DNA from: Bacteroidales bacterium
GTDB lineage: Bacteria; Bacteroidota; Bacteroidia; Bacteroidales; UBA932
DNA: 64,000 bases
Reading direction: 5' to 3'
Assembly: GCA_017438975.1 (NCBI GenBank)
Contig: JAFRUH010000033.1
Span: 186,001-250,000 of the forward strand
Every line of letters begins with the position of its first letter. The stretch's first letter is position 1. Under the pieces are notes generated by a model that saw only the letters and a program-made list of their open reading frames with translations, was not told where the DNA came from and ran no database searches. The translations under genes were made by a program, and so were the position numbers. Positions 36,854 through 61,000 of the stretch are shown here, one piece after another.

Positions 36854-37516
36854 CTACCGGCCGTTTTTGAGCCGGGCTCTCAGAACGGACGCAAAGTCCT
36901 TGAACTGTTCATTGCGGCGGGTCCTTCCGAAATTGGAATCGTGGACCCTCCGGTCCGTTGAGACAAGGTCGATTTTCCGGATGACCTGCCCGTGAAGCGC
37001 CATCCTGTCGCTCCAGTCGATGATTTCGCCCGCGGTCAGGGCGGAGTTGAAGGGACCGATGATCCCGAAGACGGACCGCCGGATCAGGATGGCTCCGGTG
37101 AACAGTCCGTAATAGGGTTCCTCCCTGAGGGAAACGTTGCCCGGGGTGCATTCCGGAGAGAGGAAATCCCGTACCATCGCTTCCGCCGCCGCGGCCCCGG
37201 GATTGCCGGAGAGGGTCTCGCAGAGGGTCTTGAGGGCACCCTCCCGCATCCGGTCGTCATGGTCCATGAAAAGGACGAAATCGCCCGTCGCGGCCTGCAG
37301 ACCCGTGTTCTTGGCGACAACGGGCCCCTGAGAAACCGGATGGGAAAGGACCCGGCACCCGTACTCCGCCGCAATCGCCGCCGTTTCGTCTTCGGAGCCG
37401 TCGTCCACGACGATGACCTCGAGACGGCACCCCTGCCGGAACAGGCTGTCAAGGGCTTCCCGGATATACTTCGCTCCGTTCCGGACGGGCATGATAACGG
37501 AAATGAGTGGGTCCAT
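36854..37516 (-). CDS. Family 2 glycosyltransferase
   Basis: A 220-residue GT-A protein: ISVIMPVRNGAKYIREALDSL, VIVVDDGSEDET, GPVVAKNTGLQAATGDFVLFMDHDD (metal-binding acidic motif). Shorter than its two neighbours, with a compact C-terminal half, and no membrane segment. Donor and acceptor are unknown. Last gene of the minus-strand locus, starting 5 bases after the previous glycosyltransferase stops. Confidence 0.88.
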   Translation of the reverse strand: MDPLISVIMPVRNGAKYIREALDSLFRQGCRLEVIVVDDGSEDETAAIAAEYGCRVLSHPVSQGPVVAKNTGLQAATGDFVLFMDHDDRMREGALKTLCETLSGNPGAAAAEAMVRDFLSPECTPGNVSLREEPYYGLFTGAILIRRSVFGIIGPFNSALTAGEIIDWSDRMALHGQVIRKIDLVSTDRRVHDSNFGRTRRNEQFKDFASVLRARLKNGR

Positions 37517-37521
37517 GGCGG

Positions 37522-38505
37522 TCAGGTTTTTGATGCGTTCCGGAGTCGGTTCCGGATAAAGTCGATCGAGATGTTGGGATTGTGCCGGGTACGGTACTCG
37601 GCGTAGTCGGCGCAGGAGGTGACGGCCTCCAGAAGGTACAGGTCGAGGGCGATGTACCGTTCGGGATGGCGGAGGACGGCAGGCTTGATTTCGACGAGGA
37701 AGTCCCGGATGAAGTCGAACCTCTCTTCCGAATCGATGACGAGGGGACCGGCGTAGAAGAGACGGAGGTCTTCCGTAGGGAGCGACCGCGCGCGCAGTTC
37801 GTCATAGAGGGCTCTGAAACTGAGGATGAAGTCATATCCGGCCGTCTTCAGATGGGCGAGGGAATCCTCCCGCTGGTAATAATGGTAATACGGACCCCGG
37901 AAAACGAAAAGGTCCGGGAGGGGGATTTCCGCCAGGGTCGTGAAATAATTGTCTTCGCCTCCACCCCGGAGGTCCGGGAACCTGAGTCCGTTCTTATTCA
38001 GGTATTCTTTCCGGTAGAGCCGGGCCCAGAGGACGGGCGGGAAAAGGAGCTCCACCGAGGCGGTGTCATAGACTTCCCGCCCTTCTTCGAGGAAACCGAA
38101 CCGGGTGCTGTATTCTTTCTTTACCGGATCGTCGTATTCCTTGACGAAACAGGCGTTGATCACGACATCCCGTCCGGTCCTTTCCGCCTGGCGGAGCATC
38201 GCTTCCAGATGGCCGGGATCGAGCCAGTCATCGGAATCCAGGAAACAGATATAACGACCTTCCGCGGCCTCGAGGGCGCGGTTCCGGGCCTTCCCCGGGC
38301 CTCCATTCGTCTCCATGCGGAGGACTTTGAGCCGTCCGTCCTGTTCCGCCCTGCGGGCGAGAACGGCGGAGGACCCGTCCGTAGAACAGTCGTCGGCGCA
38401 GAGGACCTCGATGCTCCGCAGGGTCTGCCCCAGGACGGAATCGAGGCAGCGGTCCAGGTATTTTTCCGTGTTGTAAACCGGAATGATGACGGAAATATCA
38501 ACCAT
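37522..38505 (-). CDS. Family 2 glycosyltransferase
   Basis: A 327-residue GT2: ISVIIPVYNTEKYLDRCLDS, EVLCADDCSTDGS, NGGPGKARNRALEAAEGRYICFLDSDDW. The C-terminal half has the longer WcaA-like extension (YKFLDW-type segment replaced by ARLYRKEYLNKNGLRFPDLRGGGEDNYF). It overlaps the upstream glycosyltransferase by 8 bases and is clearly its paralogue over the first 110 residues, suggesting a tandem duplication. Confidence 0.9.
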   Translation of the reverse strand: MVDISVIIPVYNTEKYLDRCLDSVLGQTLRSIEVLCADDCSTDGSSAVLARRAEQDGRLKVLRMETNGGPGKARNRALEAAEGRYICFLDSDDWLDPGHLEAMLRQAERTGRDVVINACFVKEYDDPVKKEYSTRFGFLEEGREVYDTASVELLFPPVLWARLYRKEYLNKNGLRFPDLRGGGEDNYFTTLAEIPLPDLFVFRGPYYHYYQREDSLAHLKTAGYDFILSFRALYDELRARSLPTEDLRLFYAGPLVIDSEERFDFIRDFLVEIKPAVLRHPERYIALDLYLLEAVTSCADYAEYRTRHNPNISIDFIRNRLRNASKT

Positions 38506-39442
38506 GCAGATCCCGTTTTAGTTCCCGGACGAGGGCCCTCCGGTCCGATTCTTTCCGGAAAAAGACATATTCCGACAGGCAGGCGGAAAGGTCCCGGCAC
38601 CGGCGGAGAATGCCGCTGAAGCCTTCAGCGGCCCGTTTCGTCACCGCGTCGGAGACATAATACTTCTGGCACCAGCCGATGAACTGGTCCATCAGGAAGG
38701 CGAATACGATGCTGTAATGCCGGTTGTCGATCCCTAGGGCGTCCATCCGGTCCAGGATGTCGTTCGCCCCGGTGATCAGGTCCTCGACCGGCCGGAGGGA
38801 GAGATTCTTCCTCGTCACGGACGCCGGGTTGTCCGTGTAGTAGTAGACCGCATCGTCCACCACCGCGATCCTGTCATAGTGGAAGGCGGCGCGGACCGAA
38901 AAATGCGGATCTTCGAAAAAGAGGAGATCCTCGTTGAAACGGATTCCGTTCCGGCGCAGCATCTCCGTCCGGTAGACGGCGGAGGTATAGGTCAGGAAAA
39001 ACCACGCCTTGTGCTTCCGGATCCGGTCGTTGAGGTTGAAGATTTCCTTCAGATAGACGCTCTCTTTCCTCGGGTCATAGTTTTTCAGCGTTCCTTTGGC
39101 GACATCCGCCCCTTCCCGGAGGGCGGCTCCGCAGAGCTTTTCGAAAAAGTCCGGATCGACGAAGTCATCGCTGTCCACGAAGCCGATGAAATCGCCCTTG
39201 GCCGCATCCAGGCCTGCGTTCCGCGCTGCGGAAGGGCCCCGGTTCTCCGGAAAAGAAAGGACCCGGATCCGTCCGTCTTTCCGGGACCATGTCTCCAGCA
39301 AGGCGGCGGATCCGTCCGTGGAACCGTCGTCTATGCAGAGGACCTCCAGGTCGCGGAGCGTCTGGCCGGTCAGGCATTCCAGGCACTTGTCCAGGAAGGC
39401 TTCGGCGTTGTAGACCGGAACAATGACGGATACGACGGGCAT
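38498..39442 (-). CDS. Family 2 glycosyltransferase
   Basis: A 314-residue GT2: VSVIVPVYNAEAFLDKCLECL, EVLCIDDGSTDGS, NRGPSAARNAGLDAAKGDFIGFVDSDDF; further on, TEMLRRNGIRFNEDLLFFEDPHFSVRAA is the usual acceptor-side segment. First of three glycosyltransferases, 6 bases after the PqqD-like gene stops. Its position suggests that sugar transfer is part of the same pathway as the PqqD/kinase-like genes. Confidence 0.9.
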   Translation of the reverse strand: MPVVSVIVPVYNAEAFLDKCLECLTGQTLRDLEVLCIDDGSTDGSAALLETWSRKDGRIRVLSFPENRGPSAARNAGLDAAKGDFIGFVDSDDFVDPDFFEKLCGAALREGADVAKGTLKNYDPRKESVYLKEIFNLNDRIRKHKAWFFLTYTSAVYRTEMLRRNGIRFNEDLLFFEDPHFSVRAAFHYDRIAVVDDAVYYYTDNPASVTRKNLSLRPVEDLITGANDILDRMDALGIDNRHYSIVFAFLMDQFIGWCQKYYVSDAVTKRAAEGFSGILRRCRDLSACLSEYVFFRKESDRRALVRELKRDLHG

Positions 39443-39448
39443 GAGGGC

Positions 39449-39871
39449 TTATTTTTCGGGTTTCCAGCCCTCTTCCTCGCTCACTTCATGGATCGGATCG
39501 GCGAAGAGCAGCTCCTGGACGTCCTTGTATTCCTTGCAGACCGGGATGAACTTGTCAAAGGCCGCATCTTCCGCTTTCAGGACCGCTTCTCCGGAGGAAA
39601 CGGGGGCGGGAACGACGATGTCGAAGTCGACCAGGGTATCGAGGAATGCCTGCAGGGGTTCTTCCAGATCCTCGGGTGCGCCGGGCAGGGCCTTCGCGGC
39701 CGCAAGCACGTCCGTCGTGGAGGCTCCGGAGAGCAAACTGCAGAAGATGCCGGTCCCATAGCCGTTCATCCCGTAGTAGATCCCGGTGACGGCGTTGATG
39801 ATGATGGCGATCCCGTCCGTGACGTCCGCAAACATCTTCGCTTCGTTCAACTGATAGTTCTTTGATTCCAT
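39449..39871 (-). CDS. PqqD-like protein with acidic C-terminal tail
   Basis: A 140-residue protein from ATG 39871. Residues 10-95 resemble PqqD-type RiPP recognition elements: FADVTDGIAIIINAVTGIYYGMNGYGTGIFCSLLSGASTTDVLAA, then helices. After about residue 95 there is an extension ending in DPIHEVSEEEGWKPEK (125-140), not part of a normal PqqD. PqqD domains bind precursor peptides and hand them to modifying enzymes. It lies between the HPr-kinase-like gene (16 bases upstream) and the glycosyltransferases. No separate small precursor gene fits in the gaps. Family assignment is by pattern only. Confidence 0.72.
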   Translation of the reverse strand: MESKNYQLNEAKMFADVTDGIAIIINAVTGIYYGMNGYGTGIFCSLLSGASTTDVLAAAKALPGAPEDLEEPLQAFLDTLVDFDIVVPAPVSSGEAVLKAEDAAFDKFIPVCKEYKDVQELLFADPIHEVSEEEGWKPEK

Positions 39872-39887
39872 TAATTCGTTCGGTTGG

Positions 39888-40970
39888 TTATCGTTCTTGG
39901 GTTTGGAGGAACGTCCGGAGACATTCCACATTGCCGTAAATGTCCGGAGAGAGCCGGATCGTATGGAAGGGAAGTTCCTGCAGGAAGGAAATGAGTTTCC
40001 GGACGGTCCCAGCGTCTCCCTGGGCCTGCATCTGGAGGATGGTCGAATGGACCAGGTGCGTGATCGCCCGGCCTTTTTCGGCGGGAGAGCAGGGCTCGAC
40101 GCGGGCTTCCTTCGCGTCGGGGTCGATTTCGGGGAACATGCAGGAGAGGACGGGATACCGCCTTCGGAGTGTATCGCCGTATCCGGAAATGTCGAAGACA
40201 TATTTGTCTTTCCGGGCGTTGTTGCAGACGAAACGCGCCCGGTCCAGGTCGTCGTACAGGCGGGTGTACATCGTCGGGGAAAGGGTGATGATCGAATAGA
40301 TCGGTGAGGCCAGAAGGCCCTCCCGGCTCTTTTCAAGGATCAGGTAATCGTCTGATACATAATCGAATCCGCGGAGCATCGCCGTGACCGCGAGGGTGGA
40401 CTTGCCACGCTGCCCCCTCGCGCAGAGGAGGATTCCCTTCCCGTCCAGGCCGATGCAGGCCCCGTGGACCAGATGGGAGGAAGGCGTGTCCAGGATGCGG
40501 TACAGGTCGTGCACGAAAAGGTGCCCTTCCCGGATCCATTCCTCCGGCTCGAAGCGCTCCGTCGCATACCAGGTAACCGTCCCGTCGGTCAGGCGTACGG
40601 TCCGGTTGGCGTAACTCACTTCGCCGAAGGGAACGAGGTCTTCGCCCTTCCGCTCGGTGAGGATCAGGTTGTCTCCGGAACCGTCGCCTTCGACGTCCAA
40701 CCCGAGGACGCGCCTGTGGAAATCCGCGTCCACCCGCTCCCGCCACAGGATCAGGGTTGCGTCAGGGGAAGGGACCGGAGCGGTCAGGGACCAGGCGAGC
40801 TGGCGCCGGATCATCGGTGCGGCCTCTTTCTCGCAGGCGAGGATCCGGACGGTCCGGACGCCACCGAGGTCCAGATAGAACACCTCCGCTCCGGGAAGCA
40901 GAGGCTCCAGGGCGGCTCTCAGGCGGCGGAAACAATTCGCCCGCTGTTCCGTATGCAAGGACAGGACCAT
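39888..40970 (-). CDS. HPr kinase-related protein (HprK-rel type)
   Basis: A 360-residue protein. The C-terminal half has a P-loop, LLCARGQRGKSTLA, with the nucleotide lysine at about residue 190, followed by FDYVSDDYLIL, the HprK-like acidic segment. The N-terminal half (1-165) is a separate alpha/beta region without recognised motifs. It is not a normal HprK/P, since no HPr or PTS gene is nearby. Related kinases occur in peptide-modification clusters, including lasso-peptide kinases. It abuts the nucleotidyltransferase-fold gene with no gap. Confidence 0.78.
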   Translation of the reverse strand: MVLSLHTEQRANCFRRLRAALEPLLPGAEVFYLDLGGVRTVRILACEKEAAPMIRRQLAWSLTAPVPSPDATLILWRERVDADFHRRVLGLDVEGDGSGDNLILTERKGEDLVPFGEVSYANRTVRLTDGTVTWYATERFEPEEWIREGHLFVHDLYRILDTPSSHLVHGACIGLDGKGILLCARGQRGKSTLAVTAMLRGFDYVSDDYLILEKSREGLLASPIYSIITLSPTMYTRLYDDLDRARFVCNNARKDKYVFDISGYGDTLRRRYPVLSCMFPEIDPDAKEARVEPCSPAEKGRAITHLVHSTILQMQAQGDAGTVRKLISFLQELPFHTIRLSPDIYGNVECLRTFLQTQER

Positions 40971-42098
40971 CTATTCTTCGTTAATCAGGAACCCCTTGTT
41001 CCTGAGGATTTTCATTTTCTCTTTCAGGCCGGGGATCCGTTTTAGGAAGAAGAACTTCGCCCGCCGCCCGACATACGGGGCGAGCGGCCGGATCTCCCGG
41101 AAGGCTTTGGCCAGGTTGAACTCTCCGATTTCAGTCCGCATGGGGCTCAGGACCTCCCGTTTGTACATCAGCCGGAGGCAATGCGCCTCCGCCGCCCTGT
41201 CGTCGATCCGGTCGGACAGGAACCCTTCCGGGAAGAGTCCGGGAAGGAGGGAGGAGACGAAGGAGGCGGCCATCCAGACCTGGATTTCGGACCGGGTCCG
41301 GGCGGCGTTTTCCCGTACGATTCCCCAGTCGAAACCGCCCTGGAGCCCGAGGAGATAATGCAGGTCGAAGAAGGAATTCAGCACACTTCCGGCGCTGGTC
41401 CTTTCCGACAGGTTCTTATACAGGTTGACAAGGGAAATGAAGACCATGTCCTCCCGGCAGGGCAGGAACCCGTCCGAAGAGAACATCCGCTCTTTCCCGG
41501 CGCGGCGGAACAGGTCGTCGTTGAAGGGACGTTCCTCGCCGGTATGCATCTGGATGAACCGGTGCAGGTCGACGACGCTTTCGTCCGTCCCCGCGATCCG
41601 GAGGTCGGTGCTGTGCGAACAGCGGAAAGAACTGTAACCCAGTTCTTCCGCGACGGTTTCCGCCGCGTGGAAGTCCTTCTCTTTCACGAGGATGTCGACA
41701 TCTCCCATCCAGCGGGGAAACTCCGGACGGTAGACTTTCATGGCGCCGCCTTTCAGGATGACGAAGGGAATATTCCTGCGGTTCAGCGCCCCTGCGATCC
41801 TCGAGAAATGGGAGAACAGCTTCAGGCTCTGGAACCGGCAGAAGTTCAGGACACCCTTCAGCCGCGGCAGGACCGAATTCGGGAAAGACAGTTCCGGATG
41901 GATCTTCATCAGGTATGCGAGGAGGATGACGCTGTGGATCGGGACTTTTTCGATATCCCAGTCCTTCAGGAAGGCGTCGAGTTCTTCCTGCGACACGGAG
42001 GGTCCCAGGGACATGGTCAGGAGCCGGCGCTCCTCCGTGTCCATCGTTTCCCGTCCGAGGTAATCCAAAACCTTATGAACCAGCTCCTTCCCTTTCAT
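40971..42098 (-). CDS. Nucleotidyltransferase-fold family protein (PF14907-like)
   Basis: A 375-residue protein. ALNRRNIPFVILKGGAMKVYRPEFPRWMGDVDILVKEKDFHAAETVAEELGY near residues 104-155 is the signature of the uncharacterised nucleotidyltransferase family, with the GDVD metal-binding motif. VVDLHRFI and a helical C-terminal half follow. Such proteins regularly accompany HPr-kinase-like and PqqD-like genes in peptide-modification loci. Its 5' end overlaps the YfhO-like gene by 26 bases, and its stop abuts the kinase start. Confidence 0.82.
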   Translation of the reverse strand: MKGKELVHKVLDYLGRETMDTEERRLLTMSLGPSVSQEELDAFLKDWDIEKVPIHSVILLAYLMKIHPELSFPNSVLPRLKGVLNFCRFQSLKLFSHFSRIAGALNRRNIPFVILKGGAMKVYRPEFPRWMGDVDILVKEKDFHAAETVAEELGYSSFRCSHSTDLRIAGTDESVVDLHRFIQMHTGEERPFNDDLFRRAGKERMFSSDGFLPCREDMVFISLVNLYKNLSERTSAGSVLNSFFDLHYLLGLQGGFDWGIVRENAARTRSEIQVWMAASFVSSLLPGLFPEGFLSDRIDDRAAEAHCLRLMYKREVLSPMRTEIGEFNLAKAFREIRPLAPYVGRRAKFFFLKRIPGLKEKMKILRNKGFLINEE

Positions 42099-44622
42099 TC
42101 CTTTTCGTAATATAAATCCAGGCCGCAGCCGCGAGGAGAAGCAGGTACATCAGTACGGAGGCGATCCGGGAGATCCGGGAGCCAAGCGTATAGGACGGCG
42201 GATCGAAACGCATCGTGAGGTCGTGCTCCCCGGCAGGGACGACGGCACCGCGGAGGGTCCAGTCCGCCCGGAAGATATCGACCGGCGTTCCGTCCTCCAG
42301 GGAAGCCCTCCAGCCGGGATAGTAGACTTCGCTGAAGACGGCGGCGCGTCCGGACGACGCCTTGTAATGGTATTTCACTTCATTCGGGACGTAGGAGGTG
42401 AGCGCGATCCAGTCCGTCGAATCGGCGGGAGCCGCCGGCGCCGTTACCGAACCGAAGTCCGGTCCGAGGATCGCCTCGCTCCCGAGCGGGACCTCGGCGA
42501 GCAGGCCGATTTCCTCGTCCAGGGACGCAGCCTTCCGGAATCCGTCCACGAACCAGGCGTTCCCCAGGCGGGCCGGGTTGTACAGAGGGCGGTTGCCCTT
42601 GGCTATGAAGTACTTGGTATTCAGCAAATTGAAAATCGGGATTCCGGTGAGGAGCGTCTGTCCGTCCATCCGCTCGTTCAAGCCCTTGATCAGGAAGGAG
42701 GTCTCCGCCCGGAGATACCGGTCGATAAGGTCCTGATAGCGCTGGAGCTTGGCGGGACTGTACCCGCCGACGCTCTTGTGGGTGTAGCTCAGGCGGGCGT
42801 CGCTGAAAATGTCGGTGGTAAGGTCGAGAACGCGGAAATCAGGGTCGTCGTCCTTGAGGATTTCGAGGTCGACGGGCCGCATCGCGAACTGTTTTTCGAA
42901 CTTTTTGACGGAGGAGAAATGCTGTCCGTTCAGGTAGCGCTTCCCGACCGAGAAGAGGTTGACGAGGATCAGGAGGCAGATGGCCGCCATGGCGGCATCC
43001 TTCCGCCCGAAGGCAGATTTATTCCGGGCGGAGGTCTTTCCGGAGACAGCCCACCATAAAAGCAGGAAGGAACTGACAATCAGGAAGAAGGAAATCCAGG
43101 CATCGCGGACCAGCAGGGCTTTCCGGTCGGCGGTGAGGGCTTCGAGCAGGGATGCCGTCTTTCCGGCATCCTCCGGTCTCGCGAAGTTCCCCGCAAGGCC
43201 CGGGAAAAGGGCGAAGAGGAGGCAGACTCCGGCGGTAAGCGCCAGGGCGATCCCGCCTTTCCGGAGGAATTCCTTCCGGGGGCAGCCTTCCCGCATCAGG
43301 TGCTCCAGCAGCAGGAACGCGAGCATCGGCAGGGTGAACTGCAGGACGACAAGGCCCATGGACACCGCCCTGAACTTGCTGTAGAACGGGACGAAACGGT
43401 AGAAGAACTTCGTGAAGGGAAGGAACTGGGCCCCGAGGGAAAGGAAGATGGCGACGAGGGTCGCGGCCAGCAGCCACCATTTGTCCTTGCCCTTGTAGAG
43501 GAGCAGTCCCAGGAGGAAAAGGAAGATGGTCACGGCGCCCATGTACATCGGACCCGCGGTCATGGGCTGGGGCCCCCAGTAGACGGAAATGTTCCAGTCC
43601 TGCGGTTTCATCTTGTCTTCCCCGATCCGCTGCAGGGCCTTGTAGGTCTTGAGGCTCGGGGTGATCTTGCTTTCCGAGCTGCCGCCGTTCAGGTTCGGGA
43701 TCATCAGGTTCGGAAGCTCTTCCCAGTGGTAGGACCACATCGAGGCGTAGTCGGTGGAGACGCCTTTCTTCTCATTTCCGGACAGTTCCGATCCGCCGCG
43801 GATCGACTGGGCGGTATACTCATAGAGCGGGACCAGTTTCGAGGCGCTCGTCGCGATGCCGGCGCCGCCCAGCAGGAGCAGGAGCAGGGACGCCGCGGCC
43901 CAACGGCCGGGAAGGACCTTTCTGCGCTCTTTGTCGACGAGGATCCGGATCAGAAGGGCAAGGGCATAGATGCCGATGACAAGGGCCAGGTACCAGGTGA
44001 TCTGGACATGGTCCGCCTTGACCTGGAAGGCGAGGGCGAAGCCGAAAAGGACGGCCCCGAGTACGGTATAGGGAAGCCACTCCTTCCGGGCAGCGTCCTT
44101 TTGGGCGAGAGCCTTGCGGTAAGTGAAGATGACGGCGGCGAGAACCCACGGGAAATAGGCCAGGGCCAGCATCTTGGTGTTGTGCCCGCTCTGGATGATC
44201 TGCATGTTGTAGGAGCAGAAGGTAACGGCGACGGCTCCTCCCATCGCCAGCAGGGGACGGATTCCCAGCGAAAGCATCAGCAGGAAGGCGCCCAGCAGGG
44301 AGATGAACAGATAGCTGGCCGGCCGGCGTCCGGCGTGGCGGACCGCTTCGAACAGGGGTTTGACCCAGTCTCCGGTGTCGTTTCCGGTCAGGAGGATGGT
44401 CGGCATGCCGCTGAACATGGACCCGGTCCATGCCGTCTTGTCCTCCGGGTGGTATTCGTCCCACTGTTTGGCTTCGTGGCTGGCTCCGACGTAACCGGTG
44501 ATGTCCGGGGACTGGACGATTTCTCCCTTGAAGACGGCTTGTGGCACGAAAGCGCAGGAAAGCGCCGCAAAAAAGAGGACTGCGGCGGCGTACAGAAGGA
44601 CTTTTTTATAAACAGGGTTCAT
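42073..44622 (-). CDS. YfhO-type polytopic membrane protein
   Basis: An 849-residue membrane protein: an N-terminal TM helix, a large extracytoplasmic loop (QSPDITGYVGASHEAKQWDEYH), then many TM helices to about residue 600 (for example GAFLLMLSLGIRPLLAMGGAVAVTF), and a C-terminal soluble domain with NLLNTKYFI and SEVYYPGWRASLEDGTPV, both hallmarks of the YfhO family. YfhO in Gram-positives takes part in glycosylating lipoteichoic acid, so a GT-C-like transfer is likely here too. First gene of the seven-gene minus-strand run; the promoter box is at 44655-44648. Confidence 0.9.
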   Translation of the reverse strand: MNPVYKKVLLYAAAVLFFAALSCAFVPQAVFKGEIVQSPDITGYVGASHEAKQWDEYHPEDKTAWTGSMFSGMPTILLTGNDTGDWVKPLFEAVRHAGRRPASYLFISLLGAFLLMLSLGIRPLLAMGGAVAVTFCSYNMQIIQSGHNTKMLALAYFPWVLAAVIFTYRKALAQKDAARKEWLPYTVLGAVLFGFALAFQVKADHVQITWYLALVIGIYALALLIRILVDKERRKVLPGRWAAASLLLLLLGGAGIATSASKLVPLYEYTAQSIRGGSELSGNEKKGVSTDYASMWSYHWEELPNLMIPNLNGGSSESKITPSLKTYKALQRIGEDKMKPQDWNISVYWGPQPMTAGPMYMGAVTIFLFLLGLLLYKGKDKWWLLAATLVAIFLSLGAQFLPFTKFFYRFVPFYSKFRAVSMGLVVLQFTLPMLAFLLLEHLMREGCPRKEFLRKGGIALALTAGVCLLFALFPGLAGNFARPEDAGKTASLLEALTADRKALLVRDAWISFFLIVSSFLLLWWAVSGKTSARNKSAFGRKDAAMAAICLLILVNLFSVGKRYLNGQHFSSVKKFEKQFAMRPVDLEILKDDDPDFRVLDLTTDIFSDARLSYTHKSVGGYSPAKLQRYQDLIDRYLRAETSFLIKGLNERMDGQTLLTGIPIFNLLNTKYFIAKGNRPLYNPARLGNAWFVDGFRKAASLDEEIGLLAEVPLGSEAILGPDFGSVTAPAAPADSTDWIALTSYVPNEVKYHYKASSGRAAVFSEVYYPGWRASLEDGTPVDIFRADWTLRGAVVPAGEHDLTMRFDPPSYTLGSRISRIASVLMYLLLLAAAAWIYITKRNEREGAGS

Positions 44623-46232: not shown

Positions 46233-47002
46233 GGGCGGGAAATGGCGGTTAGGATGGCGACGACCTTGCCGGTGGAAGTCTGCCAGATTCCTCCGACGGA
46301 TTCCGAGGCGGAGGCGTGGATTTCCGATGCGCCCGTTTCCGAAAGGATACGTGCGGCGTTTTCCGGCGTAACCCCGCCGCCGGGGAGGATGAGGATGCGT
46401 CCCGCCGCCCTATCCGTGAGCTGCTTCAGAAGCGGGATGCCGGCCTCGGCGGAGGATGCCTGCCCCGAGGTCAGGATGCGGTCAAACCCCAGGCTTGCCA
46501 GGGCTTCCAGGGCGAAAAACGGATCCCGGCAGACATCGAAGGCCCGGTGGAACGTCAGGGAAACGGCCTTCCGGGGCGCGCCCGGAAAGAAATGGCCGTC
46601 GTTCGAGGCGTGGCAGAGGTCGGAGTCCGCCAGTTCCCTGGCGAGGTTCCAGTCCTCGACGGGGCGGACCAGCTCCAGTAGCGCCCGGATGTCCGGATCC
46701 CCGTTTCCGTCGAGGGCCCCGATCACAATGCCGTCAGCGCCGGCCTCCAGGGCCTCTTCGACCTGTCCGGCCATGGTCCCGGTTTCAGCGGGGGTATAAC
46801 GGAAATCACCCGCCCGGCAACGGATCAGGACATGGACAATCAGGTCCGGATAACGCGCCTTGACAGCCCGGAGATCCTCCATGGACGGCGTCAGTCCGTC
46901 CTTTTCGAGGGCGGAGCAGAATTCAATCCGTTCCGCCCCGCCCCGGACGGCTGCGTCGACGCTTGCCGGATTGCCGCAGCAGACTTCGAGAAGGGGGTTC
47001 AT
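46229..47002 (-). CDS. cutC: CutC family protein
   Basis: A 257-residue TIM-barrel protein of standard CutC length. LLEVCCGNPASVDAAVRGGAERIEFCSALEKDGLTPS and DLIVHVLIRCRAGDF are the N-terminal signature; LTFHRAFDVCRDPFFALEAL and GFDRILTSGQASSAEAGI follow, and ILPGGGVTPEN is near the C-terminus. It was named for copper homeostasis, but the biochemical role in bacteria is unsettled. It overlaps both neighbours by 4 bases, so it is translated in line with the fucosidase and flippase. Confidence 0.95.
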   Translation of the reverse strand: MNPLLEVCCGNPASVDAAVRGGAERIEFCSALEKDGLTPSMEDLRAVKARYPDLIVHVLIRCRAGDFRYTPAETGTMAGQVEEALEAGADGIVIGALDGNGDPDIRALLELVRPVEDWNLARELADSDLCHASNDGHFFPGAPRKAVSLTFHRAFDVCRDPFFALEALASLGFDRILTSGQASSAEAGIPLLKQLTDRAAGRILILPGGGVTPENAARILSETGASEIHASASESVGGIWQTSTGKVVAILTAISRP

Positions 47003-48324
47003 TTAAGTTTGATTTCGAGGACAGTATCGATCTCCGCCGGGTCCGGAGCGGGCAGGGTAATCGTCAGGAATCCGTCTTTGGAGGTCTTCCAGAGCCGGTT
47101 CTCTCCGCTCTTGTACTCGGAGACGCCGGTGATTTTTTCCGCAAAGGGAATGACCAGAACGGCCGTCTTCCCGTCGGACGGCAGGTTGGCGGGTTCGAGG
47201 ATATGGAGGAAGACGGAGGTTGCGTTCCGGGTCGAAACGCCCCAGGGCTGCTCCGGAATCGCGGTCTTGTCCGTTCCGTCGACGGTGCGGGAGAAGACCT
47301 TCATCCACCCGCCCATCCCCTTGAGCCGGTCGAGCGCAGGGGCCGGGAGCTGGCCGTCGGCCTGCGGGCCGATGTTGATCAGGAGGTTGGACCCCTTGGC
47401 CGCGGCGCGTACCAGGAGTTGGATCAACTCTTTGACACTCTTGTATTTCTGATCGTCGATCTTGTATCCCCAGGCTCCGTTCATCGTCTGGCACATCTCG
47501 AGGGGCATGATCGTGCTGACTGCCTGGCCGCTCATCCCCGCCTTGTTTTCGCCGGGGAGATCCCGCTCGAACATCTGGAAATCTTCTCCCGGGATGGGTG
47601 CGATGTGGTGGTTGTTGCCGATGAGGCAGGCCGGATCGATGTCGTGGATGAACCGGTAAAGCTCTTCCATCTGCCAGGGAAATCCGGCTTCCCGGTGGTC
47701 CCACATGCCGTCGAACCAGAGGGCGGAGGGATGATACTGGGTCAGGAGCTCGCGAATCTGGGCCTTTTCAAACTCGAGATAATGGTTGTAATCCGCCTTG
47801 GAATCGTCTTTGGCGATGCCGGAACGGCCTTTCGGATAGTCCTCCCGGAGCCAGTCTAGGATGGAATAATAGAAGTGCATGTCCATCCCTTCGGCCTTGA
47901 CGGCCTCGGTGAGCATCCCGGAAACATCTTTTCCATAGGGAGTCCCGTCTACGATGTTGTAAGGGCTTTGGGCGGTGCGGAACATGGAGAAACCGTCATG
48001 GTGCCGGGAGGTCAGGGTGACATAGCCGGCGCCGGCCTCCTTGAACGCCCTGGCCCAGGCGGCCGCATCGAAACGGGCCGGGCAGAAGCCGTTGGCCGCA
48101 CTGTAATAGGCTTCCCGGTCGAGTTTCCCGTTCGACAGGTACCACTCTCCCTGGGCGTATGAGCTGTAGATTCCCCAGTGGAGGAAAATGCCGAGCCGGT
48201 GGGAGGCGAATTTCTCCCGGGCCCGGAGGTTGGATTCGGAGGGAGTATAGGATTCCGTCTGCGCGGAAACGGCCGCCCCGCCGAGGAGCAGGCACAGGAG
48301 CAGGGTGAAGAAACGTTTATTCAT
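46999..48324 (-). CDS. Secreted alpha-L-fucosidase (GH29)
   Basis: A 441-residue protein from ATG 48324 with a signal peptide ending AVSAQ. GH29 motifs: HRLGIFLHWGIYSSYAQGEWY, FDAAAWARAFKEAGAGYVTLTSRHHDGFSMF, and ALWFDGMWDH, where D205 is the expected nucleophile; KGSNLLINIGPQADGQLP closes the barrel. A short beta domain ends the protein. It would release alpha-L-fucose from glycans in the periplasm or outside. Gap to the upstream GH28 gene is 16 bases. Confidence 0.92.
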   Translation of the reverse strand: MNKRFFTLLLCLLLGGAAVSAQTESYTPSESNLRAREKFASHRLGIFLHWGIYSSYAQGEWYLSNGKLDREAYYSAANGFCPARFDAAAWARAFKEAGAGYVTLTSRHHDGFSMFRTAQSPYNIVDGTPYGKDVSGMLTEAVKAEGMDMHFYYSILDWLREDYPKGRSGIAKDDSKADYNHYLEFEKAQIRELLTQYHPSALWFDGMWDHREAGFPWQMEELYRFIHDIDPACLIGNNHHIAPIPGEDFQMFERDLPGENKAGMSGQAVSTIMPLEMCQTMNGAWGYKIDDQKYKSVKELIQLLVRAAAKGSNLLINIGPQADGQLPAPALDRLKGMGGWMKVFSRTVDGTDKTAIPEQPWGVSTRNATSVFLHILEPANLPSDGKTAVLVIPFAEKITGVSEYKSGENRLWKTSKDGFLTITLPAPDPAEIDTVLEIKLK

Positions 48325-48340
48325 ACTAACAGGGTTCGTA

Positions 48341-49720
48341 TCAGTAGGACAGGATCCGGACATTCCGGAAGGCAATCATGGCCGGGTCGGCGAGGTCCGA
48401 TCCGGTTTCGAGGAAAAAGAGGGTGCTGTCGTCCAGGAAGATATCGTGGATCATCGAGAGCGGGCCGCGGGCGGCGACGGCGATCCGGGCGTCCCGACAC
48501 ACGATGCCGGAGATATGGATGTCCGAAAAGTCGGGCAGGAAGGCCTGCGTCTTTGCGACGGCGGCCTTCTCTCCGACGGACTGATTGGCATAGGACGTTT
48601 CGAAAACGATCGCCTCGTCCCGGATGTCGCTCATGTAAATCGATGAGATATAGATATTTCCGCAGCGACCGCCCCGGCCGGGTCCACTTTTGAAGCGGAG
48701 GCCGGTATCCGTTCCGGAGAAGGTATTGTCCCGGACGACGATGTCGAACATCCCCCCGGAGAACTCGGACCCGATGACAAAGCCTCCATGGGCATGGTTG
48801 ACCGTGTTCCCGGCGATCAGGATCCGCCGGCAGGGGCCACCCTTGACCCCGGCCTCGCCGGCTCCGCCCTTGAGGCAGATGCCATCATCGCCGACATCGA
48901 CCCTGCAGCCCGTCACGAGGACGTCCTGCGACTGCATGATGTCGATTCCGTCACCGTTCTGGGCGTTCCAGGGACAACGGACCGTGACTCCGTCGATGAT
49001 GACGTTGCGGCAGCGCTGCGGAACGAGATGGAATTTGGGAGAGTTCTGGATCGTGACGCCGGCGACGAGGACATTCTCGCAGTCCGTGAAACGGATCAGG
49101 TGCGTCCTCAGCCGCTCCTGCTCCTGCGGGGAGGGGGCGGCGTTCTCGAAATGCTTGAGCCCGAAGGGGTACCAGAGCGACCCGTCCTCGGTAACCGTTC
49201 CGCCGAGCCGCCGGAAATCATTCCATTCTACATCGCTGACCTTGCCTCGCTTGACGGCCCGCCACCATTCTCCGTTCCCGTCCAGGGTGCCTTCGCCGGT
49301 CAGGCTGATGTTCTTCCGCTTGCTCGCGGAGAGACCCGGGACCATTCCGGAGCCGTCCTCTTTCAGGAAGAGGGTCTTGTCCGGGGAGAAGAGGACGAGA
49401 GCGTTTTTCTCGAGGTGGAGGTCGATATTGTCCTTCAGGGAAATCGGGCCGGTCAAGTAGATTCCGGCCGGGACGACCAGATGGCCGCCGCCTTGTTTCG
49501 AGAGGGCGGAGATGGCTTTCCGGAAGGCTTCCGTGTTGAGGGCGACGCCGTCCCCGTTTCCGCCGAAATCAAGCAGGGAGACGGTCCGGTCGGGAATGAC
49601 GGGCGCTACCGGTTCGGACAATGCGACGGGAAGATTCCGGTACAGGTCGGTATAGCTGCCGGCCGAAAGGGTCGCAAGGGGGCCGGTAAACAGCATCAAA
49701 AGAAGTAAAATCCGTTTCAT
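48341..49720 (-). CDS. Secreted glycoside hydrolase family 28 (polygalacturonase-like)
   Basis: A 459-residue protein from ATG 49720 with a signal peptide. SLLDFGGNGDGVALNTEAFRKAI is the classic right-handed beta-helix start. GH28 acids and histidine are visible: NGDGIDI with D257, GDDGI with D278 and D279, H311 in HAHGGFVIGSE, and LRFKSG. It would cleave alpha-galacturonosyl or related bonds in pectin-type glycans. With the fucosidase it forms a degradation pair, but no SusC/SusD genes are present here. Confidence 0.92.
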   Translation of the reverse strand: MKRILLLLMLFTGPLATLSAGSYTDLYRNLPVALSEPVAPVIPDRTVSLLDFGGNGDGVALNTEAFRKAISALSKQGGGHLVVPAGIYLTGPISLKDNIDLHLEKNALVLFSPDKTLFLKEDGSGMVPGLSASKRKNISLTGEGTLDGNGEWWRAVKRGKVSDVEWNDFRRLGGTVTEDGSLWYPFGLKHFENAAPSPQEQERLRTHLIRFTDCENVLVAGVTIQNSPKFHLVPQRCRNVIIDGVTVRCPWNAQNGDGIDIMQSQDVLVTGCRVDVGDDGICLKGGAGEAGVKGGPCRRILIAGNTVNHAHGGFVIGSEFSGGMFDIVVRDNTFSGTDTGLRFKSGPGRGGRCGNIYISSIYMSDIRDEAIVFETSYANQSVGEKAAVAKTQAFLPDFSDIHISGIVCRDARIAVAARGPLSMIHDIFLDDSTLFFLETGSDLADPAMIAFRNVRILSY

Positions 49721-49725
49721 ATTCG

Positions 49726-49733
49726 CAAAGATA
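49726..49733 (-). promoter_or_regulatory. Putative Bacteroidetes-type -7 box for GH28-GH29-cutC-flippase
   Basis: The minus strand reads TATCTTTG, ending 5 bases before the GH28 ATG at 49720, so the leader would be very short. Confidence 0.45.
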
Positions 49734-49764
49734 ACAAAATACCGGAATCTGCGGGAGGATTTCT

Positions 49765-49772
49765 TATCTTTG
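49765..49772 (+). promoter_or_regulatory. Putative Bacteroidetes-type -7 box for the GDPD lipoprotein
   Basis: TATCTTTG (TAnnTTTG), 27 bases before the ATG at 49800; divergent from the GH28 promoter. Confidence 0.5.
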
Positions 49773-49799
49773 CAGCAGGAACTAAAGCGAAAGATTGAT

Positions 49800-51131
49800 A
49801 TGAAGACTAACCGGATCCCTGCACTCTGCCTCCTGCTGGCACTCCTCGCGTCCTGCGGAAGAGGCCCCGAACGAATACCCTCCCACGCCGTCATGGCCCA
49901 TCGCGGCTCGACCTACTGGGCGCCCGAGGAAACGGAAAGCGCCTGGCGCTGGGCGCGGGAAACGGGCGCGGACTATCTCGAATCCGACCTCCAATGCACG
50001 AAGGACGGCATCATCCTGGCGAACCACGATGAGAACCTGACCCGGACGACGGATATCGAAGCCGTCTTCGGCGACCGAATTCCCGACAGCCGCATCTCCT
50101 TCTACGAGTCCCTGGGGTTCTCCTCGGCCGACGCCGTGGCCCAGTTCCTCCGGGACAAGGAGACCTTCCGTCCCTTCTATGCAGCCTCCTATTATTATGC
50201 GGAGCTGCTGATGCTGGATGCCGGAAGCTGGTTCAATGCCGCCAACCCCGACCGGGCACGTCCCGCTTTCGAAGGAAGCCAGTATGTGTCCGCCCTGCAG
50301 GACCAGATCGCATATGCCTCCGGAAAGAGGCTCTGCCGCGATACCTCGGGGCGCCGGATCCTGCCCTATGCCATGAAGGAATCCTGCAAGGGGAAGACCC
50401 TGGAAGAGATTTTCCATTCAGCCCCCGAAGGAGGGAAGTATATGGAGATCGTATCCTATGATTTTTCAAAGGCCTATGAACCGGATCCGGAAGACGGAGG
50501 GAACCGGCCCGGCATCTATATCGAATTCAAGGAGCCCGAGGTCAATCCCGAGGATATGGAACAGCGGGTCTATGAGATCCTGGACGCGGAGGGATGGAAT
50601 GTCCTGACCCGCCCCGCGACGGACCGGGACTTCTATAAGGACGGAAAGGTCAATGTCGGAAACACGGGAGGAAAAGTCATCCTCCAGACCTTTTCTCCGG
50701 CCTCCCTCCAAAGGGCGAAAGCCGTCTTCAAGGGGCGTCTTCCGATGTGCTTCCTGCTCTGGCCGCCCTGTCCGGAAGAGATTCCCGGCGGGGACCTTGA
50801 TACGCCGGAAGGCTTCCGGGCGATCCTGAAATGGGCACGGGCCAACGGGGCGAATATCATCGGACCGTCCATCTCCGGAGCTCCGAACGACTATGCGGAA
50901 CTGAACCATGCCTGGCAGGCGGACCTCGTCCGGAAGGCGGGAATGCTGAACCATCCCTATTCTTTCGACACGATCGACCAGATGAAGGAACAGACCGGAC
51001 GTTCGGACGGCTTTTTCACCAACCGGAGCGAGATGACGCTCCGCTTCCTGCTGGAGAAGGGCTTGCGGGGAGAAGGCGCCCCGACGGAAGTTTCCGATGC
51101 CGAAGAAACGCTTGCCCGGCTCGGATACTGA
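49800..51131 (+). CDS. Glycerophosphodiester phosphodiesterase lipoprotein
   Basis: A 443-residue lipoprotein (LLALLASC). The GDPD core is clear: VMAHRGSTYWAPEETESAWRWARETGADYLESDLQCTKDGIILANHDENLTRTTD, with HR, E, D and H at the expected catalytic spacing, and later YIEFKEP. A large insert (about residues 90-210) interrupts the barrel between the first and third strands, making the protein longer than a minimal GDPD. It hydrolyses glycerophosphodiesters to glycerol-3-phosphate and an alcohol, probably at the outer face of a membrane. Confidence 0.87.
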   Translation: MKTNRIPALCLLLALLASCGRGPERIPSHAVMAHRGSTYWAPEETESAWRWARETGADYLESDLQCTKDGIILANHDENLTRTTDIEAVFGDRIPDSRISFYESLGFSSADAVAQFLRDKETFRPFYAASYYYAELLMLDAGSWFNAANPDRARPAFEGSQYVSALQDQIAYASGKRLCRDTSGRRILPYAMKESCKGKTLEEIFHSAPEGGKYMEIVSYDFSKAYEPDPEDGGNRPGIYIEFKEPEVNPEDMEQRVYEILDAEGWNVLTRPATDRDFYKDGKVNVGNTGGKVILQTFSPASLQRAKAVFKGRLPMCFLLWPPCPEEIPGGDLDTPEGFRAILKWARANGANIIGPSISGAPNDYAELNHAWQADLVRKAGMLNHPYSFDTIDQMKEQTGRSDGFFTNRSEMTLRFLLEKGLRGEGAPTEVSDAEETLARLGY

Positions 51132-58068: not shown

Positions 58069-61000
58069 ATGAGACTTTTCCGAATCCTGATCCTGGCAGC
58101 CTCCGCCGGGCTTGCCGCGGTATCCTGCGGACCGAAGAGATCCGCACAGGCTGTCCCGGACACCGCCTTCGCAACCTACATCAAAGCCTATACGGGCGGT
58201 ACCGTGTCGAACCGCTCGGCCATCCGGGTCGACCTCGCCCAAGCCGTTCCCGAGGAATCCCGGGGAGACGGGGAGCTGTTCAGCTTCTCGCCCTCACTCA
58301 AGGGAACCGTCCGCTGGACCGGTCCGCAGACGGTCGAATTCCTCCCGGACGAAGGGGCCCTCGTCAGCGGCGGCAAGTATAAAGGGGTTTTCCATCTCTC
58401 GAAGGTGGCGAAAGTTACCGACGGGAAACTCAAGGACTTCCGCTTTGATTTCACCGTTGCGCATCCCCAGGCGACGATAGCGGAGGAAGGTGTCACCATC
58501 CCCTCGGGCGGGAGCGGAGCGATCGTCAAGGGAACGGTCTCTTTCAGCGAGCCCGTCGAACGCGCCGCGGTCCGGGAGATGTTCAAGGTCTCCTATCCGT
58601 ACGGGGAGACGACGGTCAATCTCTCGGAAGGATCCGATGTTTTCCGCTTCGAGGTCGCCGGGATTACCCGGAGCGACGTCGAGCGGACCCTCCGGCTGTC
58701 GCTGGACAGTCCGGTCTTCAGCTGTTCTCTTCGAGAAGTTACCGTTCCGGCCCAGGGTGATTTCCGGATCCTTTCCACCCGGTACGACGACGGAACGTCC
58801 CCGTACATTGAAGTCCGGTTCAGCGAACCGCTTTCCCCGAAAGCGGTCGAGCCCGGCCATATCGAACTGGGCGGCGTCATCCGCTACCGGGTTACCGTCG
58901 CGGACAATGTCGCCAAGGTCTGGTTCGAGGGAAAGAAGGCCGACGAGGTCGCCCTGACCGTGCACCGGACCGTCCGGAGCGAGGCGGGGACGCCCCTTGG
59001 CGCGGACTATACGGAGAATCTCGCGGGAGGTGAGGCCAAGCCGGCCGTCGCCATCTCCGTGCAGGGCACGATCCTTCCGGACAAGGCGGATCTCATCCTT
59101 CCTTTCCGGAGCGTAAACCTTCGCGCCGTCGATATCAGGGTCATCCGGATCTATGAGGACAATGTCCTTATGTTCCTGCAGGACAATGAACTCGACGGAG
59201 GCAACCAGCTCCGGCGTTCCGGCCGGCTGGTCTGCAGCCAGCGGATCGATCTCGCGTCCGGCCCCGCGAAGGACCTCCACAAGTGGCAGAATTTCTCCGT
59301 CGACCTTTCCGGCCTTTTCGACAAGGAGCCGGGAGCCATCTACCGCATCCGCCTTTCCTTCAGGCAGGAGTATTCGCTCTATGGGAAGGACGCCGGGGAC
59401 CTTGCTCCGATGAGGGAACTCTCGGACGGGAAGCCCACCCGGGAGGAAGAGGCCGTCTGGGACGTTCCAGAGGCCTGGTACTGGGACAATTCCGTGGACT
59501 GGAACGTCTATGAATGGGACGACCGGGACGACCCGGAAAAGCCTTCCTATTATATGGAAAGCAGCCGGTTCCCCCAGATCAATCTCCTGGCCTCGAACCT
59601 GGGCCTTCTCGCCAAATACGCCGGAGGCGACCGGCTCTGGCTGACCGCCACGGACCTGATCAGCGCAAAACCGCTTGCCGGAACGGCGTTCGACGTCTAT
59701 GATTTCCAGCTCCGGAAGATCGCTTCCGGAAAAAGCGACGGGGACGGACAGGCGGAAATCGCCCTCTCCGGACGGCCCTTCACCGTCGTCGCCCGGCACG
59801 GGCGGAATACGGGCTTCCTCAAGATAACCGACGGGAACGAAAACAGTCTCAGCCGTTTCGACGTGGGCGGGAAAGTGCTTTCGGACGGACTGAAGGGCTT
59901 CATCTACGGCGAACGCGGTGTCTGGCGTCCGGGCGACACCCTCCACGTTACCTTCCTTGTCTCCGACCGGGACCATCCGCTGCCGGCCGGGCATCCGGCC
60001 AGTCTGGAACTTTATACGCCGGAAGGCCGCTTCCACACCCGGATGGCCGTGACGGGAGAAGACGGATTCTTCGCCTTCCACGTCCCGACCGCCGCAACGG
60101 ATCCGACCGGTTTCTGGAATGCGTATGTGAAGGTCGGAGGCGCCTCTTTCCACAAGAGCCTCCATCTCGAGACCATCAAGCCGAACCGCTTGAAAATCAA
60201 TACGGATTTCGGTGTCAAGACACTCCGGGCCGGAGAGAAGCTTCCCGTCTCGGTCACGTCCGAATGGCTGACCGGAGCGCCGGCTTCCGGACTCAAGGCC
60301 GCCGCAACCCTGACCCTCACCCCCTCCAACGCCTCTTTCAAGGGGTTTGAAGGCTATGTTTTCCGCCATCCGTCCTCTACCTTCACCCGCAGCGAGACCG
60401 AACTCTTCCGGACGCAGCTCGGAAGCGGCGGCGAGGCCAGGGTCGACGTGACCCTTCCCAAGGCGGAGAACGCACCCGGGATGCTTTCCGCCTTCATCCT
60501 GTCGACGGTCGAAGAGAACGGAGGGGACGAGAGTTTCACCACGGCGACGATGCCGTTCTCCCCGTATCCCGCCTATGTCGGCGTGCAGTTCCCCGAGGGA
60601 GATTATCTGGAGACGGACAAGGACAACAAGATCCGGGTCGCCGTCGTCGACGCCGCGGGCCGCCGCGTAGCCGGACACCGCCTCGAGTACCGGGTCTTCA
60701 AGCTCGACTGGCGCTGGTGGTGGGAAAGCCGCCGCGAAGAACTCGATTCCTATGTCAACGGCAGTTCGGCCGATGCGGTGGCGGCAGGAGAACTGGTCTC
60801 TTCCGGCAGCAGCGACGTTTCCTTTACGTTCCGGGTGGACTATCCGACCTGGGGCCGCTACCTCGTCTTTGTCCGTGACAGGGACGGCGGGCACGTCTCC
60901 GGCGACGTCGTCACGGTCGACTGGCCGGCCTACAGGGGCCGAGCGGACCGCCGTGACCCGGAATCCCTGACAATGCTGAGCTTCTCTACCGACAAGAACA

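Follow-up and report, generated by a model that had tools for sequence, protein, structure and literature searches.

What do a PqqD-like protein, an HprK-like kinase and a PF14907-type nucleotidyltransferase do in the midst of glycosyltransferase genes? The question is raised by a 64,000-nucleotide stretch of a Bacteroidales bacterium (GenBank assembly GCA_017438975.1, contig JAFRUH010000033.1, positions 186,001 to 250,000 of the forward strand; the whole stretch is called the window below), in which an earlier note, made from the sequence without database searches, had singled out these three genes. Judged by comparison with its family, the PqqD-like protein is a RiPP recognition element (RRE; RiPP, ribosomally synthesised and post-translationally modified peptide) followed by a C-terminal extension of about 50 residues, and its relatives belong to a cassette with kinase, PF14907 and glycosyltransferase family 2 (GT2) genes, which is widespread but sporadic. 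RREs are receptors for the leader peptides of RiPPs. Tentatively, and with somewhat less than even confidence, we read the window operon as a divergent representative of a phospho-glycosylation cassette, the RRE of which would be filled by a leader or pseudo-substrate built into the same protein. A widespread RRE with its own leader-like tail, accompanied by kinase, PF14907 enzyme and GT2, would link RiPP machinery to glycan assembly, and the four-protein set allows a direct test of what PF14907-type enzymes do, a question not settled for pseudomycoidin or for the linear polyphosphorylated peptides (LPP).

The operon and its three tailoring proteins

The genes for the PF14907 enzyme, the kinase, the PqqD-like protein, the three GT2 enzymes and the YfhO-like protein stand head-to-tail on the minus strand, and the YfhO-like gene is probably part of the same operon as the trio:

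39449..39871, minus strand: PqqD-like RRE protein with C-terminal tail, 140 aa (independent family profile, full-length, 85.2 bits)
39452..39565, minus strand: C-terminal tail of the PqqD-like protein (leader-like part and DPIH segment), AAFDKFIPVCKEYKDVQELLFADPIHEVSEEEGWKPEK
39888..40970, minus strand: HprK-like kinase, 360 aa (His169, Lys190, Asp207, Asp208)
40971..42098, minus strand: PF14907 nucleotidyltransferase, 375 aa (GDVD motif, residues 132-135; E 3.7e-22)
42073..44622, minus strand: YfhO-like membrane protein, 849 aa (profile match below cut-off)
38498..39442, minus strand: GT2 glycosyltransferase (PF00535, 4e-40)
37522..38505, minus strand: GT2 glycosyltransferase (PF00535, 9.9e-40)
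36854..37516, minus strand: GT2 glycosyltransferase (PF00535, 2.5e-30)

The observation made in the earlier note is herewith confirmed: the three contiguous genes lie where it placed them and belong to the families it named, and of the flanking genes it listed, the GT2 genes were recognised by PF00535 and the YfhO-like gene, below the cut-off, was found in the window as well. A domain scan of the operon genes revealed no lasso cyclase, no transglutaminase and no MsbA-like ABC transporter, and inside the operon there is no space for a separate precursor gene, in agreement with what had been said of cyclase, transglutaminase and precursor. Upstream of the operon (46999-49894), genes for an alpha-L-fucosidase and a GH28 protein are found, which are sugar-degrading and not capsule genes.

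Relatives were collected by scanning a genome collection of 84,980 species with a pattern taken from the tail, which returned 276 stretches, 232 of them encoding relatives; co-occurrence counts refer to the best 80 of these 232 loci. With Pfam PqqD, the PqqD-like protein of the window scores 19.3 bits, under the Pfam cut-off, and is the weakest family call of the trio. A profile of 78 relatives (the 80 loci minus the truncated L095 and L135, which is close to L133; the window and its genus excluded) matches it over residues 2-136 with 85.2 bits, and the family profile matches RREs of solved structure, namely TbiB1 (2.8e-18), PbaB1 (6.5e-14), TfuB1 (4.3e-8) and LppB (1.1e-6). The RRE match, on which the earlier note had staked its interpretation, is thus obtained. 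The solved RRE chains stop 2 to 6 residues past the match and the window protein continues for about 50. In these PDB searches the significance comes from the family profile and not from the window sequence alone, which reaches E 0.069; since the genus kinase profile likewise matches a single HPr(Ser) kinase of solved structure at E 0.017, the assignments of RRE and kinase rest on the wider family. The RREs of canonical members score best against NF033536 (a lasso PqqD model), yet under its cut-off.

In both enzymes, residues of catalytic type are kept. Four columns of the kinase family, His, Lys, Asp and Asp, are kept in 71, 70, 69 and 70 of 73 rows, window included, and we take them to be the His-Lys-Asp-Asp motif described as essential for lasso kinases (PMC9266682). 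The PF14907 protein of the window keeps the catalytic-type residues K116, G117, Y123, R129, D133, D135, D177, H179 and D245. Of the curated models proposed for comparison at the outset, PF14907 matches at E 3.7e-22, TIGR04352 gives 26.4 bits against a cut-off of 200, and TIGR04353 has no listed match.

A conserved leader-like tail

The earlier note had missed that the PqqD-like protein ends in a conserved tail, in which a leader motif resembling YxxPxL is found. Its family consensus is FxxPxLxK[YF][TS]DMQ[DE]LLLLDPIH[DE]VDExGWP, Y occurring as well at position -18 (the Asp of DPIH is numbered 0). Because the scan pattern consisted of the residues from -6 to +2, conservation there is given by construction; outside the pattern, the conserved residues are F, Y or W at -18 (76/80 loci), P at -15 (78), D at -8 (79), M at -7 (78), H at +3 (all 80) and V at +5 (76). 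An aromatic residue at -18, P at -15 and an aliphatic one at -13 occur jointly in 75/80 loci, and in these the first part of the tail fits the YxxPxL motif bound by the RREs of lasso and LPP systems, given as [YW]xxPx[LVIFA] in PMC13381572. Position -9 holds T or S in 68 loci and neither in the remaining 12; in the window and in its congeners L025 and L161 it is Lys. A model of the tail alone, built from 23 rows of which the window is one, has a single match in the own genome (E 3.2e-17) and matched 6/395 genomes of the phylum, always within the frame of a tail-bearing PqqD-like protein.

Does the tail sit in the groove of its own RRE? In LppB, D70 bonds the hydroxyl of the leader Tyr (PMC13381572). 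At the equivalent column, set by hand from the LppB alignment, D, E, N or Q is present in 8/14 proteins with Y at -18 versus 7/59 with F (Fisher p 7.7e-4), and Asp alone in 4/14 versus 1/59 (p 0.004). Of the 79 rows, 6 that have another residue at -18, including the window, were excluded from the comparison. Mapped on the RRE tree, this leaves 11 independent pairs, of which 5 are concordant, none is discordant and 6 are tied, so that covariation of the aromatic residue with the RRE residue expected to contact it is suggestive only. From the register of the motif and this weak covariation we infer that the tail may bind in cis, or within a homo-oligomer.

Among 722 small open reading frames (ORFs) near the cassettes, those of YxxP type are not in excess (43 with the motif, 35 with the reversed motif), the search having covered YxxP-type motifs in this neighbourhood and not the full LPP motif or the remaining genome. 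Gaps between cassette genes measure 100 nt or less in 268/315 cases and more than 400 nt in 33; as the most upstream start codons were taken, overlaps of genes are overstated. A B2 leader peptidase was detected in 1/80 loci, L127, which also has a tail-less PqqD-like protein. The SpI model TIGR02228 scored above cut-off in 7 of 40 genomes (37 from the 80 loci, plus G000, G129 and G096), and in none of the 14 genomes in which both genes could be placed (all 7 above cut-off among them, weak matches of the other genomes being unplaced) does SpI lie by the tail-bearing gene, the sole match on the same contig being about 71 kb away. The best SpI match of the own genome (21.6 bits) is on a different contig, and the one cassette ABC transporter that was scanned has no peptidase domain. 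The missing precursor may be explained by the YxxPxL-like tail of the PqqD-like protein itself.

Two other explanations bear on these data. The tail could itself be the modified core, the RRE being fused to its own precursor, which would be phosphorylated and glycosylated on the tail and then either retained as a glycan carrier on the protein or exported; its strong conservation, the frequent T or S at -9, the missing surplus of separate YxxP-type ORFs and the restriction of the tail model to tail-bearing proteins all agree with this. We nevertheless regard it as rather unlikely, because no Ser or Thr is invariant, -9 lacking one in 12 loci and being Lys in the window, L025 and L161, and because no leader peptidase is linked, B2 being present in 1/80 loci, SpI in none of the 14 genomes near the tail-bearing gene, and a peptidase domain absent from the one scanned transporter. 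Alternatively, as in LPP, the substrate would be a separate peptide that has a YxxP leader and is encoded at another place, and the tail would merely regulate access to the RRE. The enzyme set does equal that of LPP and kinase-tailored lasso clusters (PMC13381572), and RREs are established leader binders, but small YxxP-type ORFs are not enriched near the cassettes (distant genes were not searched), most gaps between cassette genes measure 100 nt or less, no linked SpI was found in the 14 genomes, and the tail would compete with any leader; this we hold to be distinctly unlikely. Lacking an invariant Ser or Thr and a linked protease, the tail is better taken as an in-cis leader with a docking or pseudo-substrate site than as a released product.

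Composition and distribution of the cassette

Besides the tail-bearing PqqD-like protein (80 of 80 loci), GT2 was found in 75, PF14907 in 69, the kinase in 68 and an ABC transporter in 42 loci; kinase, PF14907 and GT2 are all present in 60/80, and in 47 of the 52 loci where the sequence continues for at least 9 kb downstream. As several loci lie on short contigs, truncation may account for some of the missing genes. Clustering of 1362 ORFs without prior families returned the same picture (GT2/kinase in 72 loci, PF14907 in 66, PqqD in 60, ABC in 40) and no further gene as common, the next ORF cluster reaching 19 loci; the hidden Markov models (HMMs) of the survey derive from small sets, and two were iterated on the loci surveyed. 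Kinase and GT2 are fused in 22 of 72 kinase genes. According to their record titles, the 80 loci stem from Bacteroidetes, Balneolaceae, Nitrospirota, Chloroflexi, Cyanobacteria, Acidobacteria, Deltaproteobacteria, Bacillota, Verrucomicrobia, Lentisphaerae, Phycisphaerae, Gemmatimonadetes, Ignavibacteria and others. Among accessory genes, a carbamoyltransferase (L034, 12649-14505) is encoded near a kinase-GT2-GT2 fusion, such fusions measuring 831 to 861 aa in L031, L032 and L034, and frames resembling it by eye occur in L031 and L032. A sulfotransferase-family protein adjoins the cassette in L029 (5738-6481), and a cluster of similar size, judged by eye to be the same family, is found in 11/80 loci.

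Among close relatives of the own genome the kinase is rare. It is present in 3/149 genomes of the taxonomic family, own included, all of one genus, and in 2/10 other genomes listed for this genus. In G096 the order nucleotidyltransferase-kinase-PqqD-GT2 is as in the window. G129 has three kinase genes and two tail-bearing genes: locus L025 repeats the same order with a second kinase close by; L161 combines the tail-bearing gene with a PF14907-like protein (29.6 bits, just under cut-off), an ABC ATPase and a YfhO-like protein 51.5% identical to that of the window, a stronger PF14907-type match being located on the opposite strand; and in L026 (10141-11256) a kinase 49% identical to the window's adjoins a Poly_export protein, a GNVR/AAA_31 protein and an ABC transporter gene, with no match to a tail-bearing PqqD or PF14907 in 20 kb. 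The YfhO-like gene is near two of the four tail-bearing loci of the genus that were read (window and L161, not L025 and L027). As a conserved cassette part outside the genus it was rejected, no match at E 1e-3 being found in the 80 loci and 18 further loci. The second refuting condition of the earlier note, rare adjacency of the trio in related genomes, is not borne out in the wider family (kinase, PF14907 and GT2 together in 60/80 loci), though in the own taxonomic family the kinase is rare. At the level of the order, a kinase search yielded 18/295 genomes, own included, mostly with weak scores; the five best other kinases are fused to one or two GT2 domains and adjoin PqqD, and four of the five are accompanied by PF14907. 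The fifth, L028, has neither PF14907 nor DPIH in its PqqD and is possibly a decayed or divergent version of the cassette; at L028 (5090-9789), the kinase-GT2 fusion beside this PqqD has nearby a second GT2 protein with a partial kinase profile.

A small molecule as substrate has to be weighed here. Kinase and PF14907 enzyme could act on a sugar or a lipid carrier and so yield an activated donor for GT2, with the RRE as a scaffold without peptide substrate, which would suit the strong GT2 link, the kinase-GT2 fusions and the L026 kinase beside polysaccharide export genes. The YfhO family, moreover, is tied to lipid-carrier sugars in Bacillus. We consider this explanation quite improbable, as the characterised pairs of HprK-like kinase and nucleotidyltransferase act on peptides (PMC9266682 and PMC13381572), RREs bind peptides, and a conserved leader motif would lack purpose.

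Putative mechanism and relation to known systems

In pseudomycoidin, PsmK phosphorylates a C-terminal Ser, on which PsmN puts hexoses (PMC9266682), and by analogy with this pair a phospho-sugar chemistry may be inferred for the cassette. As GT2 belongs to the core genes and is often fused to the kinase, phosphate-linked glycosylation is the most economical reading. The HprK-like kinase would phosphorylate a hydroxyl of an acceptor, the PF14907 enzyme would add a sugar (or nucleotide) onto that phosphate, and GT2 enzymes would extend the phosphate-linked sugar. The PqqD-like protein would organise the reaction, its RRE groove being filled by [FY]xxPxL of its own C-terminal tail, and the segment DMQDLLLLDPIHxVDExGWP so presented might serve the kinase and its partners as a docking or pseudo-substrate site.

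Several points weigh against this proposal. Correcting for relatedness leaves only a weak covariation (of 11 independent pairs, 5 concordant, none discordant and 6 tied); the tail of the window departs from the motif, position -18 being K (followed by F), -13 C and -9 K; the PF14907 protein of the window is missing some residues that the family usually has, e.g. the HG pair 230-231 and W242; two of the three G129 kinase genes, one of them beside polysaccharide-export genes, have no tail-bearing PqqD of their own, so that the kinase may act without one; and the mechanism of PsmN is itself unsettled (PMC9266682) and deletion of lppN had no effect in a heterologous host (PMC13381572). The window tail does keep P-15, Y-10, D-8, Q-6 and DPIH. 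The window copy is a divergent one, with catalytic residues kept and the tail motif partly degenerate.

A bolder version, which we hold doubtful, would make the PqqD-like protein an RRE with a built-in and never-released pseudo-precursor, the tail filling the leader groove in cis, and thereby a scaffold or carrier on which kinase and PF14907 enzyme start a phosphate-linked glycan for GT2 to extend. The phosphorylated Ser of the LPP consensus stands 18 residues past Tyr, and the invariant Asp of DPIH sits at this very spacing, 18 past the aromatic residue. If true, this would be a peptide-templated route to surface glycans in many phyla, undescribed in the literature searched.

Which known system comes nearest? 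Kinase-tailored lasso clusters (paeninodin, pseudomycoidin) share the RRE (B1), the HprK-like kinase with His-Lys-Asp-Asp and the nucleotidyltransferase, but differ by cyclase (0/80 loci here), B2 (1/80) and precursor (none separate found), the cassette having a GT2 core instead. An assignment to lasso peptide clusters was rejected on the missing cyclase, searched with an HMM from L071-L074, the members of which are Pfam Asn_synthase where scanned. These four loci, found by the PqqD profile, are of the kinase-tailored lasso type, with tail-less PqqD, transglutaminase-like B2, kinase, ABC transporter and asparagine synthase-like protein, and with PF14907 in 3/4. In L127, from Bacillota, the tail-bearing cassette has a tail-less PqqD, B2 and another kinase for neighbours, which recalls co-located LPP and lasso clusters. 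In the HPr-rel-A cassette (TIGR04352/TIGR04353), an HprK-related kinase likewise adjoins a PqqD-like protein; membership was rejected, as the four kinases with a listed score gave 26 to 47 bits with TIGR04352 (cut-off 200) and no TIGR04353 match was listed for five PqqD-like proteins, the window's included. Borosins, in which the modifying enzyme is fused to its own precursor, share the idea of a cis-fused peptide substrate, but they carry the core on the enzyme, whereas the cassette carries a leader-like tail on its RRE, with modification putative.

A set of RRE, HprK-like kinase and NTP transferase that needs no lasso cyclase and occurs in capsule loci has been known since 2026 from the LPP of Bacillota (PMC13381572, also for what follows). 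LPP and cassette have these three proteins in common, as well as an MsbA-like ABC transporter in about half of the cassette loci (42/80) and the leader motif, YxxPx[VL] in LPP. Peculiar to LPP are a separate precursor (YxxPxVLxHQxIxFETxxS), the archaeal-type SpI peptidase and a short RRE; peculiar to the cassette are the leader-like tail, GT2 in the core, a kinase often fused to GT2, and occurrence in many phyla. Although the enzymes agree, membership in LPP is not claimed, since neither a linked SpI (in the 14 genomes with both genes placed) nor a precursor signal near the cassettes was seen. RREs linked to PF00535 or carbamoyltransferase are described in PMC12710340 as fusions with the enzyme, whereas in the cassette the RRE is separate with its own tail and it is the kinase that is fused to GT2. 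A cassette of tail-bearing PqqD and GT2 was not found described in the open-licence papers searched. It is best called a variant of the RRE-kinase-nucleotidyltransferase systems, nearest to LPP and kinase-tailored lasso clusters and without the defining features of both. The interpretation in the earlier note is partly supported on the whole: its coupling to glycan assembly is strengthened by the tie to GT2 (75/80 loci, kinase-GT2 fusions), its novelty reduced by the LPP report.

The own genome encodes a second PF14907 protein (L001, 1198-2340; 118.8 bits), and the 3.7 kb examined there show neither a kinase nor a PqqD gene. Elsewhere in the window, a bacterial alpha-2-macroglobulin of 1813 aa is encoded at 58069-63510.

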